Source: Demequina zhanjiangensis | GTDB taxonomy: Bacteria; Actinomycetota; Actinomycetes; Actinomycetales; Demequinaceae | Direction of reading: 5' to 3' | Assembly (NCBI RefSeq): GCF_030418315.1 | Contig: NZ_JAUHPV010000004.1 | Location: 124,001 to 188,000 of the forward strand | Length of the DNA: 64,000 bases | Shown here: positions 40,886 to 45,018 of the stretch, piece by piece | How the letters are laid out: the number at the start of each line of letters is the position of its first letter | Position numbering within the stretch: position 1 is the stretch's first letter | Made by a program: the position numbers and the translations under genes | Notes under the pieces: model-generated | Databases searched by the model: none | Told to the model about the DNA's origin: nothing | The model's input: only the letters and a program-made list of their open reading frames with translations

Positions 40886-41398
40886 TCAGTCTCGCTCGAC
40901 CCACCGGTCGATCGCCCACACGAGCGCGAAGGCGATACCAGGCTCCACGCCCTCGAGCACGTCGACCGTGTACTTGTCGCGCACGGTCACCCACTTCTGC
41001 GTGATCTGCATCGCGACCGTCCCGTCGGCGCGGCGGACCGTGTAGTCCTTCTCGATGATGTTGCCCTCGAGCAGCAGCTCCTCGCCGGAGGCGAGCGTCA
41101 CCTCGATCTTGTCCTTGACGAACTGGAACGGCTTGGCGTGCAGGTGGGCCACATGCTCTCCGCCTGCGGTCTCGATGTCCATGCGCTTGGGGATGCCGAG
41201 CATCTTGCCTGTCACCTTGAACAGCAGCGTCCCCTGGGTGTCCACGATCTCCGCGCGCGGCTTGGGGCCCATCTTCCCGTCGACGAGGAACAGGTCGGCC
41301 TCCGTCGCGGGGTCCAGGATCCTGAAGTCGCGGCCCGCGCCGAACTTGCTCTTCATCAGGAACCGGGCGTAACCCTCGGGTGCGGGTGGGACGGGCAT
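40886..41398 (-). CDS. LURP-one/scramblase-like (tubby-fold) protein
   Basis: 170 residues of the LURP-one-related/phospholipid-scramblase fold, with FLMKSKFGAGRDFRILDP, TGKMLGIPKRMDI and FALVWAIDRWVE at the C-terminal hydrophobic helix. It is a beta-barrel-type domain around one helix, possibly membrane-associated. The role in bacteria is unknown. The ATG at 41398 has GAGAGGAG upstream; the longer frame lacks a site. It is a single gene, between hairpins at 40823 and 41479. Confidence 0.72.
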   Translation of the reverse strand: MPVPPAPEGYARFLMKSKFGAGRDFRILDPATEADLFLVDGKMGPKPRAEIVDTQGTLLFKVTGKMLGIPKRMDIETAGGEHVAHLHAKPFQFVKDKIEVTLASGEELLLEGNIIEKDYTVRRADGTVAMQITQKWVTVRDKYTVDVLEGVEPGIAFALVWAIDRWVERD

Positions 41399-41478
41399 GG
41401 CGGTGCTCCTCTCGTGGGCGTACCTCGACAGTAGCCAAGGCCGGTCGATCGCGCCTGGTAAGTGCACCTGGAGACACC

Positions 41479-41593: not shown

Positions 41594-42589
41594 TCAGCCC
41601 AGCGCGCCGTCGGAGCTGAAGACCAGGCCGAGCGCGATGTCGCCCTCGGTGATGGCGGTCTTGGTGAGCGGGCCACCCGCGTCGAGCGAGAGGAACGAGT
41701 CGATCTCGATGCCGTAGGTGTTCTCGAGCCCCACCTGGCAGAAGTCGCGCTCGGGGCACTCGGCGGGTCCGCCGAGCACGATCGGGCCGCAGGCCTCTGC
41801 CAGTTCGGTCAGCGAGGTGACGCCGTAGGCGTCGACGAAGCCCTGTGTGGTGGCGAAGGCGTTCTGGTCCTGCGCTGAGGAGGCAGCGCCGAAGACGAGC
41901 CCGACCTCCTCGCCGAGCGGTGCGAGCGCCGCGACGGTCTCGTCGATGTCGCCCGACGCGACGGTCTCCGCCTCGGCGCCGTTGATCGACTTGTTGAGGA
42001 ACTCGGTGACGGTGGCGGCGTACTCGGGAACGATGTCCACCTCGCCGGACTGCAGCGCAGGCATGTACGTCTCGCGGTTGCCGATAGTGCGCACCTCGAC
42101 GTCGTAGCCGGCGTCGGTGAGGACGTCGCCGTAGATCTCCGCGACGGTGATGTTCTCGGAGAAGTTGGCCGCGCCGATCACGAGGCTGCCCTCACCGGAC
42201 ATCGGCGCGGTGAGGCCGTTGTCCGCGACGAACTGTGCGGCGACGTCACCCGACGTCTGTCGGTCGACGTCCACCGCCTTGTTGAGCTGGATCAGCGTGT
42301 CGGTGTCGAGCGCGGCGGAGACGGCGTCGAGCGCGCCCAGCACGGCCTCGGACGCCGAGTCGGCGTTCACTGCGGGGATCATGTTGTCGGACAGTTGAAG
42401 GTTCATGTCGTCGTCCAGGACGACGAGGGTGTCGCCGGCGACGGGTGCGCAGGCCTGGGCCTGCATCGTGTCGGAGCCGGTGGTGGCGGTGGCCGAGCCC
42501 GAGGTGTCGGACTCCTCGTAGCTCGTGCAGCCGGCGAGGGCGATCATGGAGATCGCCGCGGCGGCGACGATGCCGGAACGGGTGTGCAT
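41594..42589 (-). CDS. Glycine-betaine/osmoprotectant-binding lipoprotein, circularly permuted
   Basis: 331 residues. A signal peptide with lipobox LAGC (Cys21) is followed by a linker. The segment about 50-130 (LVVLDDDMNLQLSDNMIPAV, then LNKAVDVDRQTSGDVAAQFV) looks like the tail normally found at the C-terminus of OpuCC/OsmF-type binding proteins. The usual N-terminal core follows (LVIGAANFSENITVAEIYGDVL, YEVR-like VEVRTIGNR, GEVDIVPEY), and the protein ends at DIALGLVFSSDGALG. It should still form one two-lobe binding protein for a quaternary amine. GAGGAG precedes the ATG. It is third in the minus-strand operon, after two permease genes. Confidence 0.83.
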   Translation of the reverse strand: MHTRSGIVAAAAISMIALAGCTSYEESDTSGSATATTGSDTMQAQACAPVAGDTLVVLDDDMNLQLSDNMIPAVNADSASEAVLGALDAVSAALDTDTLIQLNKAVDVDRQTSGDVAAQFVADNGLTAPMSGEGSLVIGAANFSENITVAEIYGDVLTDAGYDVEVRTIGNRETYMPALQSGEVDIVPEYAATVTEFLNKSINGAEAETVASGDIDETVAALAPLGEEVGLVFGAASSAQDQNAFATTQGFVDAYGVTSLTELAEACGPIVLGGPAECPERDFCQVGLENTYGIEIDSFLSLDAGGPLTKTAITEGDIALGLVFSSDGALG

Positions 42590-42750: not shown

Positions 42751-43482
42751 CTATGCGGCGGCGCGTGCATCCGCTCGTAGGGGTGCGGGCGTCAGGCGGA
42801 TCTGCAGGCGGCCCATGATCCAGTCGACCAGAAGGCTCAGCGCGGCCACGATCAGTCCTCCCGCGAGCACCTGTCCGTAGCGCTGCGTGGCGAGGCCCGT
42901 GTTGATGATGACGCCGAGTCCGCCTCCGGCGACGAGCGCCGCGAGGGGCACCGTCGCCACGGTCTGCACGGTGGCGACGCGCAGGCCCGCCGCGATGAGC
43001 GGCCACGCGAGCGGCAGCTCCACGCGCGTCGCCACCTGGAAGCGTGTGAGCCCCTGGCCCAGTGCCGCCTCGCGCAGGTCGGCGTCCACGTCTGCCATGC
43101 CTGTGTAGGCGTTGGTCAGGATCGGCGGGAACGCGAAGATCGCGGCGGCGAGGACGACGGCGTGGTTGCCGAATCCGATGGCGGACGCGGCGAAGAGCGT
43201 CAGGAGCGCAAGCGTCGGCATGGCACGCGTGACGTTCGAGACGACCACGGTCGCAGTGCCGCCCTTGCGCAGATGGCCCAGCCAGACGCCGAGGGGAAGT
43301 GCGACCGCCGTCGCGCCGAGGACGGCTCCCAGCGACATCCCCAGGTGCTCGATCGTCAACGCGATGATCGAGTCCTGCGGCAGCACCCACTCTCCAGGCG
43401 CCACCTCACGCAGGACGCCGTACTGGCCGGTCCAGCTCGTCGGGTCCGAGAGGTAGTCCCACGCGTCGGAGATCACGCTCAT
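42751..43482 (-). CDS. Betaine/osmoprotectant ABC transporter permease 2
   Basis: 243 residues with about five or six helices, of the OpuBB/OpuCD type, and the BPD-type coupling loop ALGQGLTRFQVATRVELPLA. I place the start at the ATG overlapping the upstream permease stop (ATGA). Both permease genes and the binding protein are on the minus strand, while the ATPase is divergent. C-terminus is Ala-rich. Confidence 0.87.
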   Translation of the reverse strand: MSVISDAWDYLSDPTSWTGQYGVLREVAPGEWVLPQDSIIALTIEHLGMSLGAVLGATAVALPLGVWLGHLRKGGTATVVVSNVTRAMPTLALLTLFAASAIGFGNHAVVLAAAIFAFPPILTNAYTGMADVDADLREAALGQGLTRFQVATRVELPLAWPLIAAGLRVATVQTVATVPLAALVAGGGLGVIINTGLATQRYGQVLAGGLIVAALSLLVDWIMGRLQIRLTPAPLRADARAAA

Positions 43483-44144
43483 GCGGTCTGCCTCCTTCGC
43501 GTCCAGGGCATCGCGAGCCGTCCCAGCAGCACGAGCGCCAGGTCCAGCACGAGCGCCAGCAGCAGGCACAGGATCGACGCCGTGAGGATCTGGGCCCGGT
43601 AGTCCGACTGGAAGCCGCGGAACATCAGCTGGCCCAGGCCGCCATAGCCGACGACCACGCCGACCGTCACGAGCGCGACGGTCGACACGGTGGCGATCCG
43701 GAGGCCGGCGAGGATCGAGGGGAGCGCGTTCGGCAGCTCCACGGCGAACATCAGGCGGGTGGGCGTGTATCCGAGCCCCTTGGCGGCGTCGACCACGTCG
43801 GCGTCCACGCCTTGGAGTCCGACGAGCGTGTTGCGCACCAGCACCAGCAGCGCGTAGATGACGAGGCCGATCAGCACCGTGGTGCGTCCGATGCCCGTGA
43901 ACGGTGCGAGGAGGGCGAAGAGGGCGAACGACGGGATCGTGTACATCACGCCGCTCAAGCCCATGATGGGGCCGGCGAGGCGCGGGATCCGGCGTGCGAC
44001 GATCGCGAGCGGGAGCGCGATCAGCACGGCGATCGCGATCGCCTGCAGCGTCAGCGTGGTGTGGATCGAGAGCTGGCGCAGCACCTCATCGGAGTTGCGT
44101 TCGAGGTACGTCCACGAGAACCACGGGTTGGGGACCTCGTCCAT
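43479..44144 (-). CDS. Betaine/osmoprotectant ABC transporter permease 1
   Basis: 221 residues with five or six helices and the coupling loop AKGLGYTPTRLMFAVELPNALPS. It is first in the minus-strand operon. TACGCT (minus strand, 44151-44156) ends 6 nt before the ATG and there is no Shine-Dalgarno, so translation probably starts on a leaderless mRNA. The two permeases are likely a heterodimer, as in OpuC and OsmYW. Confidence 0.88.
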   Translation of the reverse strand: MDEVPNPWFSWTYLERNSDEVLRQLSIHTTLTLQAIAIAVLIALPLAIVARRIPRLAGPIMGLSGVMYTIPSFALFALLAPFTGIGRTTVLIGLVIYALLVLVRNTLVGLQGVDADVVDAAKGLGYTPTRLMFAVELPNALPSILAGLRIATVSTVALVTVGVVVGYGGLGQLMFRGFQSDYRAQILTASILCLLLALVLDLALVLLGRLAMPWTRRRQTA

Positions 44145-44150
44145 CGTGCC

Positions 44151-44247
44151 AGCGTACACAGGGTGGCGAGGGGCGCGTCCGGCGCCGCTCGCGAGCCGGC
44201 CGGGCGCGGCACGAGGAGTGCGCGCGGCGACGTGGACCGGCTACGGT
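44151..44247. promoter_or_regulatory. Divergent leaderless promoters of the betaine transporter genes
   Basis: Two -10 boxes point away from each other: TACGCT (minus strand, 44151-44156) 6 nt before permease 1 and TACGGT (plus strand, 44242-44247) 6 nt before the ATPase start. The whole intergenic region is 109 bp, so one regulator could act on both. Confidence 0.55.
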
Positions 44248-44253
44248 GGCCGG

Positions 44254-45018
44254 ATGGGAAGCACCGGGATCGTCTTCGAGGGCGTGCGCAAGGAGTACCC
44301 CGACGGCACTGTCGCGGTCGGCTCGCTCGACCTTGAGGCGCGTGAGGGCGAGATCCTCGCGCTCGTGGGCCCCTCGGGCTGCGGGAAGTCGACCACGCTG
44401 CGCATGGTGAACCGGCTCGTGGAGCCCAGCGCCGGGCGCATCGCTGTGGCGGGCTCCGACGTGATGGACCAGGACCCGGTTCAGCTGCGCCGAGGGATCG
44501 GGTACGTCATCCAGCACGTGGGGCTGTTCCCGCATCGCACCGTCGCGCAGAACGTCGCCACCGTGCCCGGCCTGCTCGGATGGTCCAAGGCTGACTCACA
44601 GGCCCGCGTGGAGGAGCTGCTCGATCTCGTGGGGCTTCCCGTGGGCGAGTACGGCACGCGCTATCCGCACGAGCTCTCCGGCGGTGAGCGTCAGCGCGTG
44701 GGCGTGGCGCGAGCGCTCGCGGTGCGGCCGCCTGTGCTGCTGATGGACGAGCCGTTCGGCGCGGTGGACCCGCAGGGCCGACGCAGGCTGCAGCGGGAGT
44801 TCGCGTCGATCCAGAAGGATCTGGGCACCACGGTGATGATGGTGACGCACGACATCCGGGAGGCGGTGCTGCTGGCGGACAGGATCGCGGTGCTGAGCCG
44901 TGGCGGTGTGCTGGAGCAGCTGGGCACCCCGGAGGAGGTCACGGAGAATCCCGCGAACGACTTCGTGGAGGACTTCCTGGCGGACTTCGACGTGGAGCCG
45001 CGTCAGGCCGAGGGCTGA
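44254..45018 (+). CDS. Betaine/osmoprotectant ABC transporter ATP-binding protein
   Basis: 254 residues: Walker A GPSGCGKST, signature LSGGERQRVGVARAL, Walker B VLLMDEPFGAVD, switch His VTHDIREAV. The C-terminus reads ENPANDFVEDFLADFD, typical of OpuA/OpuC ATPases, without the CBS pair of many relatives. It is divergent from the permeases. TACGGT ends 6 nt before the ATG, a leaderless pattern. Its end overlaps the DUF4126 gene tail-to-tail by 16 bp. Confidence 0.88.
   Translation: MGSTGIVFEGVRKEYPDGTVAVGSLDLEAREGEILALVGPSGCGKSTTLRMVNRLVEPSAGRIAVAGSDVMDQDPVQLRRGIGYVIQHVGLFPHRTVAQNVATVPGLLGWSKADSQARVEELLDLVGLPVGEYGTRYPHELSGGERQRVGVARALAVRPPVLLMDEPFGAVDPQGRRRLQREFASIQKDLGTTVMMVTHDIREAVLLADRIAVLSRGGVLEQLGTPEEVTENPANDFVEDFLADFDVEPRQAEG

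Follow-up and report, generated by a model that had tools for sequence, protein, structure and literature searches.

A circularly permuted substrate-binding lipoprotein of an OsmF/OpuC-type ABC importer in Demequina and other Actinomycetes

One gene of the window (the whole stretch of 64,000 nucleotides of Demequina zhanjiangensis DNA that was analysed) very probably encodes a lipid-anchored binding protein with a circularly permuted domain, belonging to an ABC importer of the OsmF/OpuC type. Throughout, A and B denote the first and second halves of the core and T the displaced C-terminal segment, the conventional order being A-B-T and that of the window protein T-A-B (Table 1). In the 331-residue ORF a signal peptide ends in LAGC, which we take to be a lipobox from general knowledge of the motif, and after a linker come the block CAPVAGDTLVVLDDDMNLQLSDNMIPAV...LNKAVDVDRQTSGDVAAQFVADNGL, the core LVIGAANFSENITVAEI and the C-terminal end LVFSSDGALG. 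An earlier sequence-only reading had placed a tail block directly after the lipobox linker, the start of the core near residue 137 and the stop where the tail would begin. All of this was recovered: the ORF, the LAGC with Cys21 and the tail block were located as described, the match to ProX of A. fulgidus begins at residue 135 and that to the nearest unpermuted relative at residue 133, and segment B ends the chain.

Table 1. Features of the putative permuted lipoprotein gene and of the adjoining importer genes (window positions).
Feature	Position	Strand	Basis or best match
Permuted substrate-binding lipoprotein gene (putative), 331 aa, order T-A-B	41594..42589	-	ORF, profile and segment matches
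Signal peptide and lipobox LAGC, residues 1-21 (Cys21)	42527..42589	-	sequence, by eye
Ser/Thr/Gly-rich linker, residues 22-46	42452..42526	-	sequence
Cys47 at new N-terminus; in T-A-B proteins, absent from unpermuted relatives	42449..42451	-	
Segment T, residues 50-127, equivalent to the C-terminal segment of conventional proteins	42209..42442	-	
Short linker joining T to A, about residues 128-132	42194..42208	-	
Segment A, residues 133-266, N-terminal half of the conventional core	41792..42193	-	
Segment B, residues 267-331, second half of the core; chain ends where T would begin	41597..41791	-	
Cys267, proposed partner of Cys47	41789..41791	-	
Cys278 to Cys284, second Cys pair, common to unpermuted relatives	41738..41758	-	
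ABC permease A	42751..43569	-	PF00528; best NCBIfam match ProW, below cut-off
ABC permease B	43479..44159	-	PF00528; best NCBIfam match choline permease, below cut-off
Divergent ATPase gene	44254..45018	+	PF00005; best NCBIfam match TIGR01186 proV, 296.7 bits, below cut-off of 326.6

The lipobox, together with the two adjoining PF00528 permease genes and the PF00005 ATPase gene (its start codon was picked by eye, and searches were run on 44245-45018), gives the gene the context of an ABC importer, and judged from its sequence the protein should be the putative ligand-capturing lipoprotein of that system. Permease and ATPase genes also adjoin those of ProX (A. fulgidus), OpuCC (B. subtilis) and OsmF/YehZ (E. 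coli), as we observed for E. coli OsmF, and these three proteins share with the window protein both the Pfam family and segments A, B and T, but their order is A-B-T.

Comparison with family profiles and with single proteins broke the window protein into two stretches. Its whole-protein score for PF04069 was 117.4 bits, against a Pfam cut-off of 21.2, and this OpuAC match was split in two, the best stretch aligning residues 135-330 with profile positions 2-183 of 257. The match to the NCBIfam OsmF equivalog (NF049931) was likewise split, with residues 35-126 on positions 187-281 of 283 as its best stretch, and its 51.1 bits, far under the 400-bit cut-off, place the protein outside that equivalog. 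In a phmmer search of chains of known structure, A. fulgidus ProX (1sw1) was matched in swapped order, residues 135-298 corresponding to 7-166 and residues 55-127 to 201-274 (whole-sequence E 7.4e-11, single stretches E 0.00012 and 0.013). The segments being swapped, the protein is not co-linear with ProX or OsmF, which keep the conventional order.

With the segments re-ordered, the nearest unpermuted relative found (L157) shares 52.5% identity with the window protein. BLASTP against the single sequence returned two stretches (133-330 to 1-200, 208 bits, and 50-126 to 200-276, 73.6 bits), and against the doubled sequence one alignment, of residues 50-330 with 200-477, at 51.6% identity (7 gap positions, 271 bits). 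The outcome was the same with two other doubled relatives (L116 and L183) and, more weakly (58.9 bits), with doubled E. coli OsmF; among 200 shuffled versions of the window protein the best score was 25.4 bits against L157 and 29.6 bits against any of the four subjects. The one-piece alignment to doubled L157, a comparison of the kind suggested in the sequence-only reading, supports the proposal made there that the same domain was cut and rejoined, that is, circular permutation. Automatic annotation sees mainly the core (best Pfam stretch 135-330), as it would if the N-terminal 80 residues formed an additional domain, unrelated or duplicated, preceding a conventional binding protein complete in itself; an unrelated domain of this kind had been named beforehand as counting against the permutation. 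It did not appear: the core lacks a C-terminal T, reaching only 2-183 of 257 profile positions and 6-207 of 280 residues of a structural chain, and the N-terminal block matches the T of ProX, OsmF and closer relatives, with up to 50.6% identity over 77 aa to its unpermuted counterpart. The doubled-sequence alignment rules this reading out, and we give it next to no credence.

The T-A joint is short, the gap between these two model segments measuring 4-7 residues in each of 109 distinct T-A-B proteins and in 10 proteins of a third order, B-T-A, described below. Downstream of T-A-B genes no leftover T was detected at E <= 10 in 107 distinct stretches extending 300-1000 bases past the stop, in which the best A or B match was 3.8 bits, and the ORFs scanned for segment order at the surveyed loci included no fused intermediate. 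A 'BTAA' tally at L175/L218 was set aside as a candidate for such an intermediate, being a weak overlapping match of 9.3 bits.

AlphaFold2, run on the mature window protein with an alignment of 35 sequences (the window protein included), gave a model with pLDDT 96.2 and pTM 0.89, in which the protein is predicted to have the ordinary two-lobed PF04069 fold (VIA Z 11.2-16.7 to family chains, rows 1-40). VIA appears to align its ranges sequentially, which for a permutant limits the match to one part of a conventional chain, and such a partial match was observed: model residues 88-285 superposed on 6-207 of 4nd9 (chain of 280; Z 14.6, 2.1 A, 192 aligned) with T unmatched, and rows 5-40, all of them PF04069-family chains, start at model residues 83-89 and end at 285, again without T. 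Foldseek TM-scores of at most 0.61 against the 50 chains listed are likewise expected if each chain covers part of a permuted model. Structure prediction and superposition, which had been suggested as a check, therefore came out for circular permutation.

The four best VIA rows are OpuAC, and OpuAC of B. subtilis (2b4l) is itself a circular permutant of the ProX fold with T before A, as in the window protein, so the two might share one permutation by descent, with the window protein a member of the OpuAC family. The top row pairs model residues 2-219 with 64-272 of 2b4l (Z 16.7, 4.1 A, 184 aligned), that is, T and most of A, and the match stops there, which places the cut of OpuAC between A and B (order B-T-A) and that of the window protein between B and T. 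B therefore stands before T in OpuAC but after A here, and the window protein does not have the OpuAC topology, in agreement with the earlier suspicion that its permutation differs from the one known between ProX and OpuAC. The sequence matches, moreover, were ProX, EgtU, OsmF and similar proteins, OpuAC not being among the 17 at E <= 1, and beyond the T-A-B group the closest relatives of the window protein are unpermuted (52.5% identity). Given the cut, the sequence matches and these unpermuted relatives, descent from the OpuAC permutation was judged very unlikely.

The B-T-A order was encountered in other classes of Actinomycetota. A draw of 296 Actinomycetota genomes contained ten with a one-stretch match over about model positions 4-226, in the order B-T-A, and G921 is an eleventh (loci L169-L178 and L239, the last in G921; genomes G680, G814, G755, G725, G844, G895, G817, G827, G709, G704 and G921); a conventional copy was also listed in six of the first ten. 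One of these proteins (L172) aligns in swapped order with chains of ProX, OpuCC and OsmF, and the 30 sequences it matched at E <= 10 do not include OpuAC. Its predicted structure (pLDDT 89.8), in turn, is best matched by OpuAC 2b4m, along almost the entire chain (Z 18.7, 3.8 A, 245 residues). B-T-A rows are nested among A-B-T proteins in the tree (100/98 in a 14-row set). From an OpuCC-type sequence, an OpuAC-like structure and this nesting, the topology of OpuAC seems to have been reached again, once or twice, by the actinobacterial B-T-A proteins: the free tree requires two changes, and a single B-T-A clade was not rejected by the AU test (p 0.347). These proteins resemble the window protein in sequence (about 33-46% identity over re-ordered segments), in having mostly the same pocket and in having permeases upstream on the same strand (7 of 10), but they differ in the OpuAC-like cut, in belonging to other classes and in lacking the C47/C267 pair. 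Counting the conventional A-B-T, the family thus contains each of the three cyclic orders.

The T-A-B order itself is not confined to Demequina. A scan of named genomes gave 284 relatives, the best 80 of which all place T in front and stop soon after B, and the genera among these 80 include Demequina, Actinotalea, Cellulomonas, Promicromonospora, Oerskovia, Isoptericola, Myceligenerans and others. In the surveys T-A-B was called from the range of the match, with an ORF-level check for genomes with a fetched locus. Within a draw of 297 Actinomycetales genomes, 230 had a match and at least 39 carried T-A-B in one stretch, namely all 23 Demequina genomes and 16 from five other families (that of G030 being truncated by a contig end); the sole sampled Demequinaceae genome of another genus (G159) gave no match. 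A draw of 394 Actinomycetes genomes yielded at least 17 T-A-B rows, three of them already counted, and in both draws the counts are lower bounds for weak or divergent genes, part of the first-look candidates having been scored in most genomes. In the draw of 296 Actinomycetota genomes, at E <= 1e-30, T-A-B was seen in G000 and G386 alone, both counted earlier. The suggestion that the permutation may be lineage-wide thus stands for the genus (23 of 23 sampled) but not for the order (at least 39 of 297, with no match in G159).

In 38 of the 39 Actinomycetales genomes the T-A-B gene is the sole match listed at E <= 0.001. In the remaining genome, G067, a divergent T-A-B gene (L114) occurs alongside a conventional copy (L115) accompanied by permease and ATPase genes, and further matches were found in three of the 14 newly counted genomes of the Actinomycetes draw (G357, G647 and G630), so that replacement by T-A-B is not universal. 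The divergent protein of G067 (L114:4586-5737, plus strand) keeps C47/C267 and has lost C278/C284 and several pocket residues, and no permease or ATPase match lies within about 5.5 kb of its gene (BLASTP E <= 1e-8); from these losses and the missing permease match, one T-A-B member may act otherwise.

To place the permutation on a tree, 188 ORFs were re-ordered by segment and aligned, of which 160 were distinct (109 T-A-B, 41 A-B-T and 10 B-T-A). On an IQ-TREE tree of 79 rows, rooted with E. coli OsmF as outgroup and built without OpuAC sequences, one change suffices for T-A-B, as it does in 94% of 200 bootstrap trees, and the neighbours of the T-A-B clade are A-B-T proteins of Actinomycetes. 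The branch support of 96/76 is not starred and comes from a bootstrap that had not settled, with two long rows (L155 and L114). This support, the 6% of 200 bootstrap trees that need more than one change and the patchy taxonomic spread would suit an order that arose more than once, for example separately in L155 and L114; these two proteins nevertheless agree with the other T-A-B proteins in their cut and in the extra Cys pair, and we consider several origins unlikely. A single origin in an ancestor within the Actinomycetes would accommodate all of them.

Both permease genes lie upstream on the same strand for 126 of 133 T-A-B ORFs and for 38 of 45 A-B-T ORFs (counts that include repeats of one genome, the window's own among them), and the T-A-B gene is mostly the last of the permease operon, as are the genes of unpermuted relatives. 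With permeases placed alike in the two groups, the permutation looks like a replacement in place. We envisage that tandem gene copies supplied the material, the T of one copy and the A-B of the next giving T-A-B, in which a few residues bridge T and A and the termini now fall between B and T, and that the permuted gene would then have taken the place of the old one in situ. Two adjacent A-B-T binding-protein genes in the same orientation were seen on the minus strand of another locus (L237, G866:C3:52500-60000), which provides the raw material needed for permutation by duplication; it is not beside a T-A-B gene, and no tandem or fused intermediate adjoining a T-A-B gene was found at the loci scanned.

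A pair of cysteines accompanies the permutation. Cys267 is present in all 109 distinct T-A-B proteins, and no Cys occurs within about six residues of its position in 45 A-B-T and 10 B-T-A ORFs. Immediately ahead of T, a Cys was found in 133 of 133 T-A-B ORFs, at the exact offset in 131 of them, and in none of 45 A-B-T ORFs; the single one among ten B-T-A ORFs belongs to the end of B. The C278/C284 pair, for its part, is common to all orders (107 of 109 T-A-B, 39 of 41 A-B-T with the outgroup counted, and 9 of 10 B-T-A, with one gap). From this pattern of conservation a C47-C267 disulfide is probable; it would pin the new N-terminus of T-A-B proteins and may have been added after the permutation. 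Going by the known ProX fold, both new ends presumably fall in lobe II, so that the lipid anchor would have shifted from lobe I to lobe II, and the ligand would still be caught by normal closure of the lobes and passed to the two permeases encoded upstream.

As to the ligand, the betaine cage of A. fulgidus ProX consists of Y63, Y111, Y190 and Y214, and K13 and R149 of the same protein were mapped as well. In the window protein Y63 corresponds to Y190, Y111 to N243, Y190 to F324 (placed by motif), Y214 to D68, K13 to A141 and R149 to R281, so that one of the four cage tyrosines is kept and three are replaced, and the pocket is not that of a ProX-type glycine-betaine binder. The label of glycine-betaine binding protein given to it at first sight is thus unsupported. 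Apart from OsmF, R172, Y190, N243 and N69 vary little or not at all among T-A-B and A-B-T proteins, and R172, Y190 and N243 are also present in all ten B-T-A proteins; other pocket positions vary more, the position of D68 being E in 10 of 40 A-B-T and 5 of 10 B-T-A proteins. The three orders probably share a ligand other than the classic betaine, to judge from these residues, and that of the window protein is probably not a quaternary amine.

To our knowledge, natural circular permutations have mostly been recognised between proteins too diverged for the event itself to be studied. In this family, identity between permuted and unpermuted forms reaches about 50%, the forms occupy the same place in like operons and there are two different cuts, so that stepwise questions become testable: whether the permutation is neutral, whether the Cys pair repairs it and how the anchor lobe affects docking to the transporter. 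T-A-B is kept across an actinobacterial lineage, and shuffling can be studied beside close unshuffled relatives. One could go further and regard the family as a natural laboratory of permutation, in which three orders occur in one phylum at the end of like operons, both cuts fall in lobe II and each moves the anchor from lobe I to lobe II, B-T-A became OpuAC-like independently and the T-A-B disulfide was fixed afterwards, the moves being adaptive re-anchoring instead of neutral drift; we find this possible but doubtful.

Permutation within the glycine-betaine binding proteins was already known, the relation among a set that includes 2b4l, 1r9l and 1sw1 being in print according to the excerpted text of PMC2395249. 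The T-A-B cut and the actinobacterial B-T-A group are new to the literature searched: no report of them was among the literature matches listed, in a search that most subscription journals lay outside. The excerpted text of PMC2861598, on the OpuA binding domain, has no mention of permutation, and that of PMC12667903 (CIRPIN) none of the transporter terms sought. A parallel in the excerpted text of PMC4990184 is TpMglB-2 of Treponema, a circularly permuted sugar-binding lipoprotein present in a set of related species and, like the window protein, a natural permutant among lipid-anchored ABC binding proteins. According to the same excerpt it differs in its Type I fold and in that its last 100 residues correspond to the usual first 100 at 13% identity, against up to 50.6% for the moved segment here (PMC4990184).

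A practical caution is that co-linear profile methods see permuted genes as pieces, Pfam and NCBIfam each having returned two stretches for the window protein. The sole other PF04069 protein found in the genome of the window lies outside it (L001, G000:C13:198878-199618, minus strand) and is co-linear with the Pfam profile over positions 2-256; the T-A-B survey profile does not reach it. Downstream of the permuted gene, at 41467..40886 on the minus strand, lies a gene for a LURP-one-related protein (LOR, PF04525).
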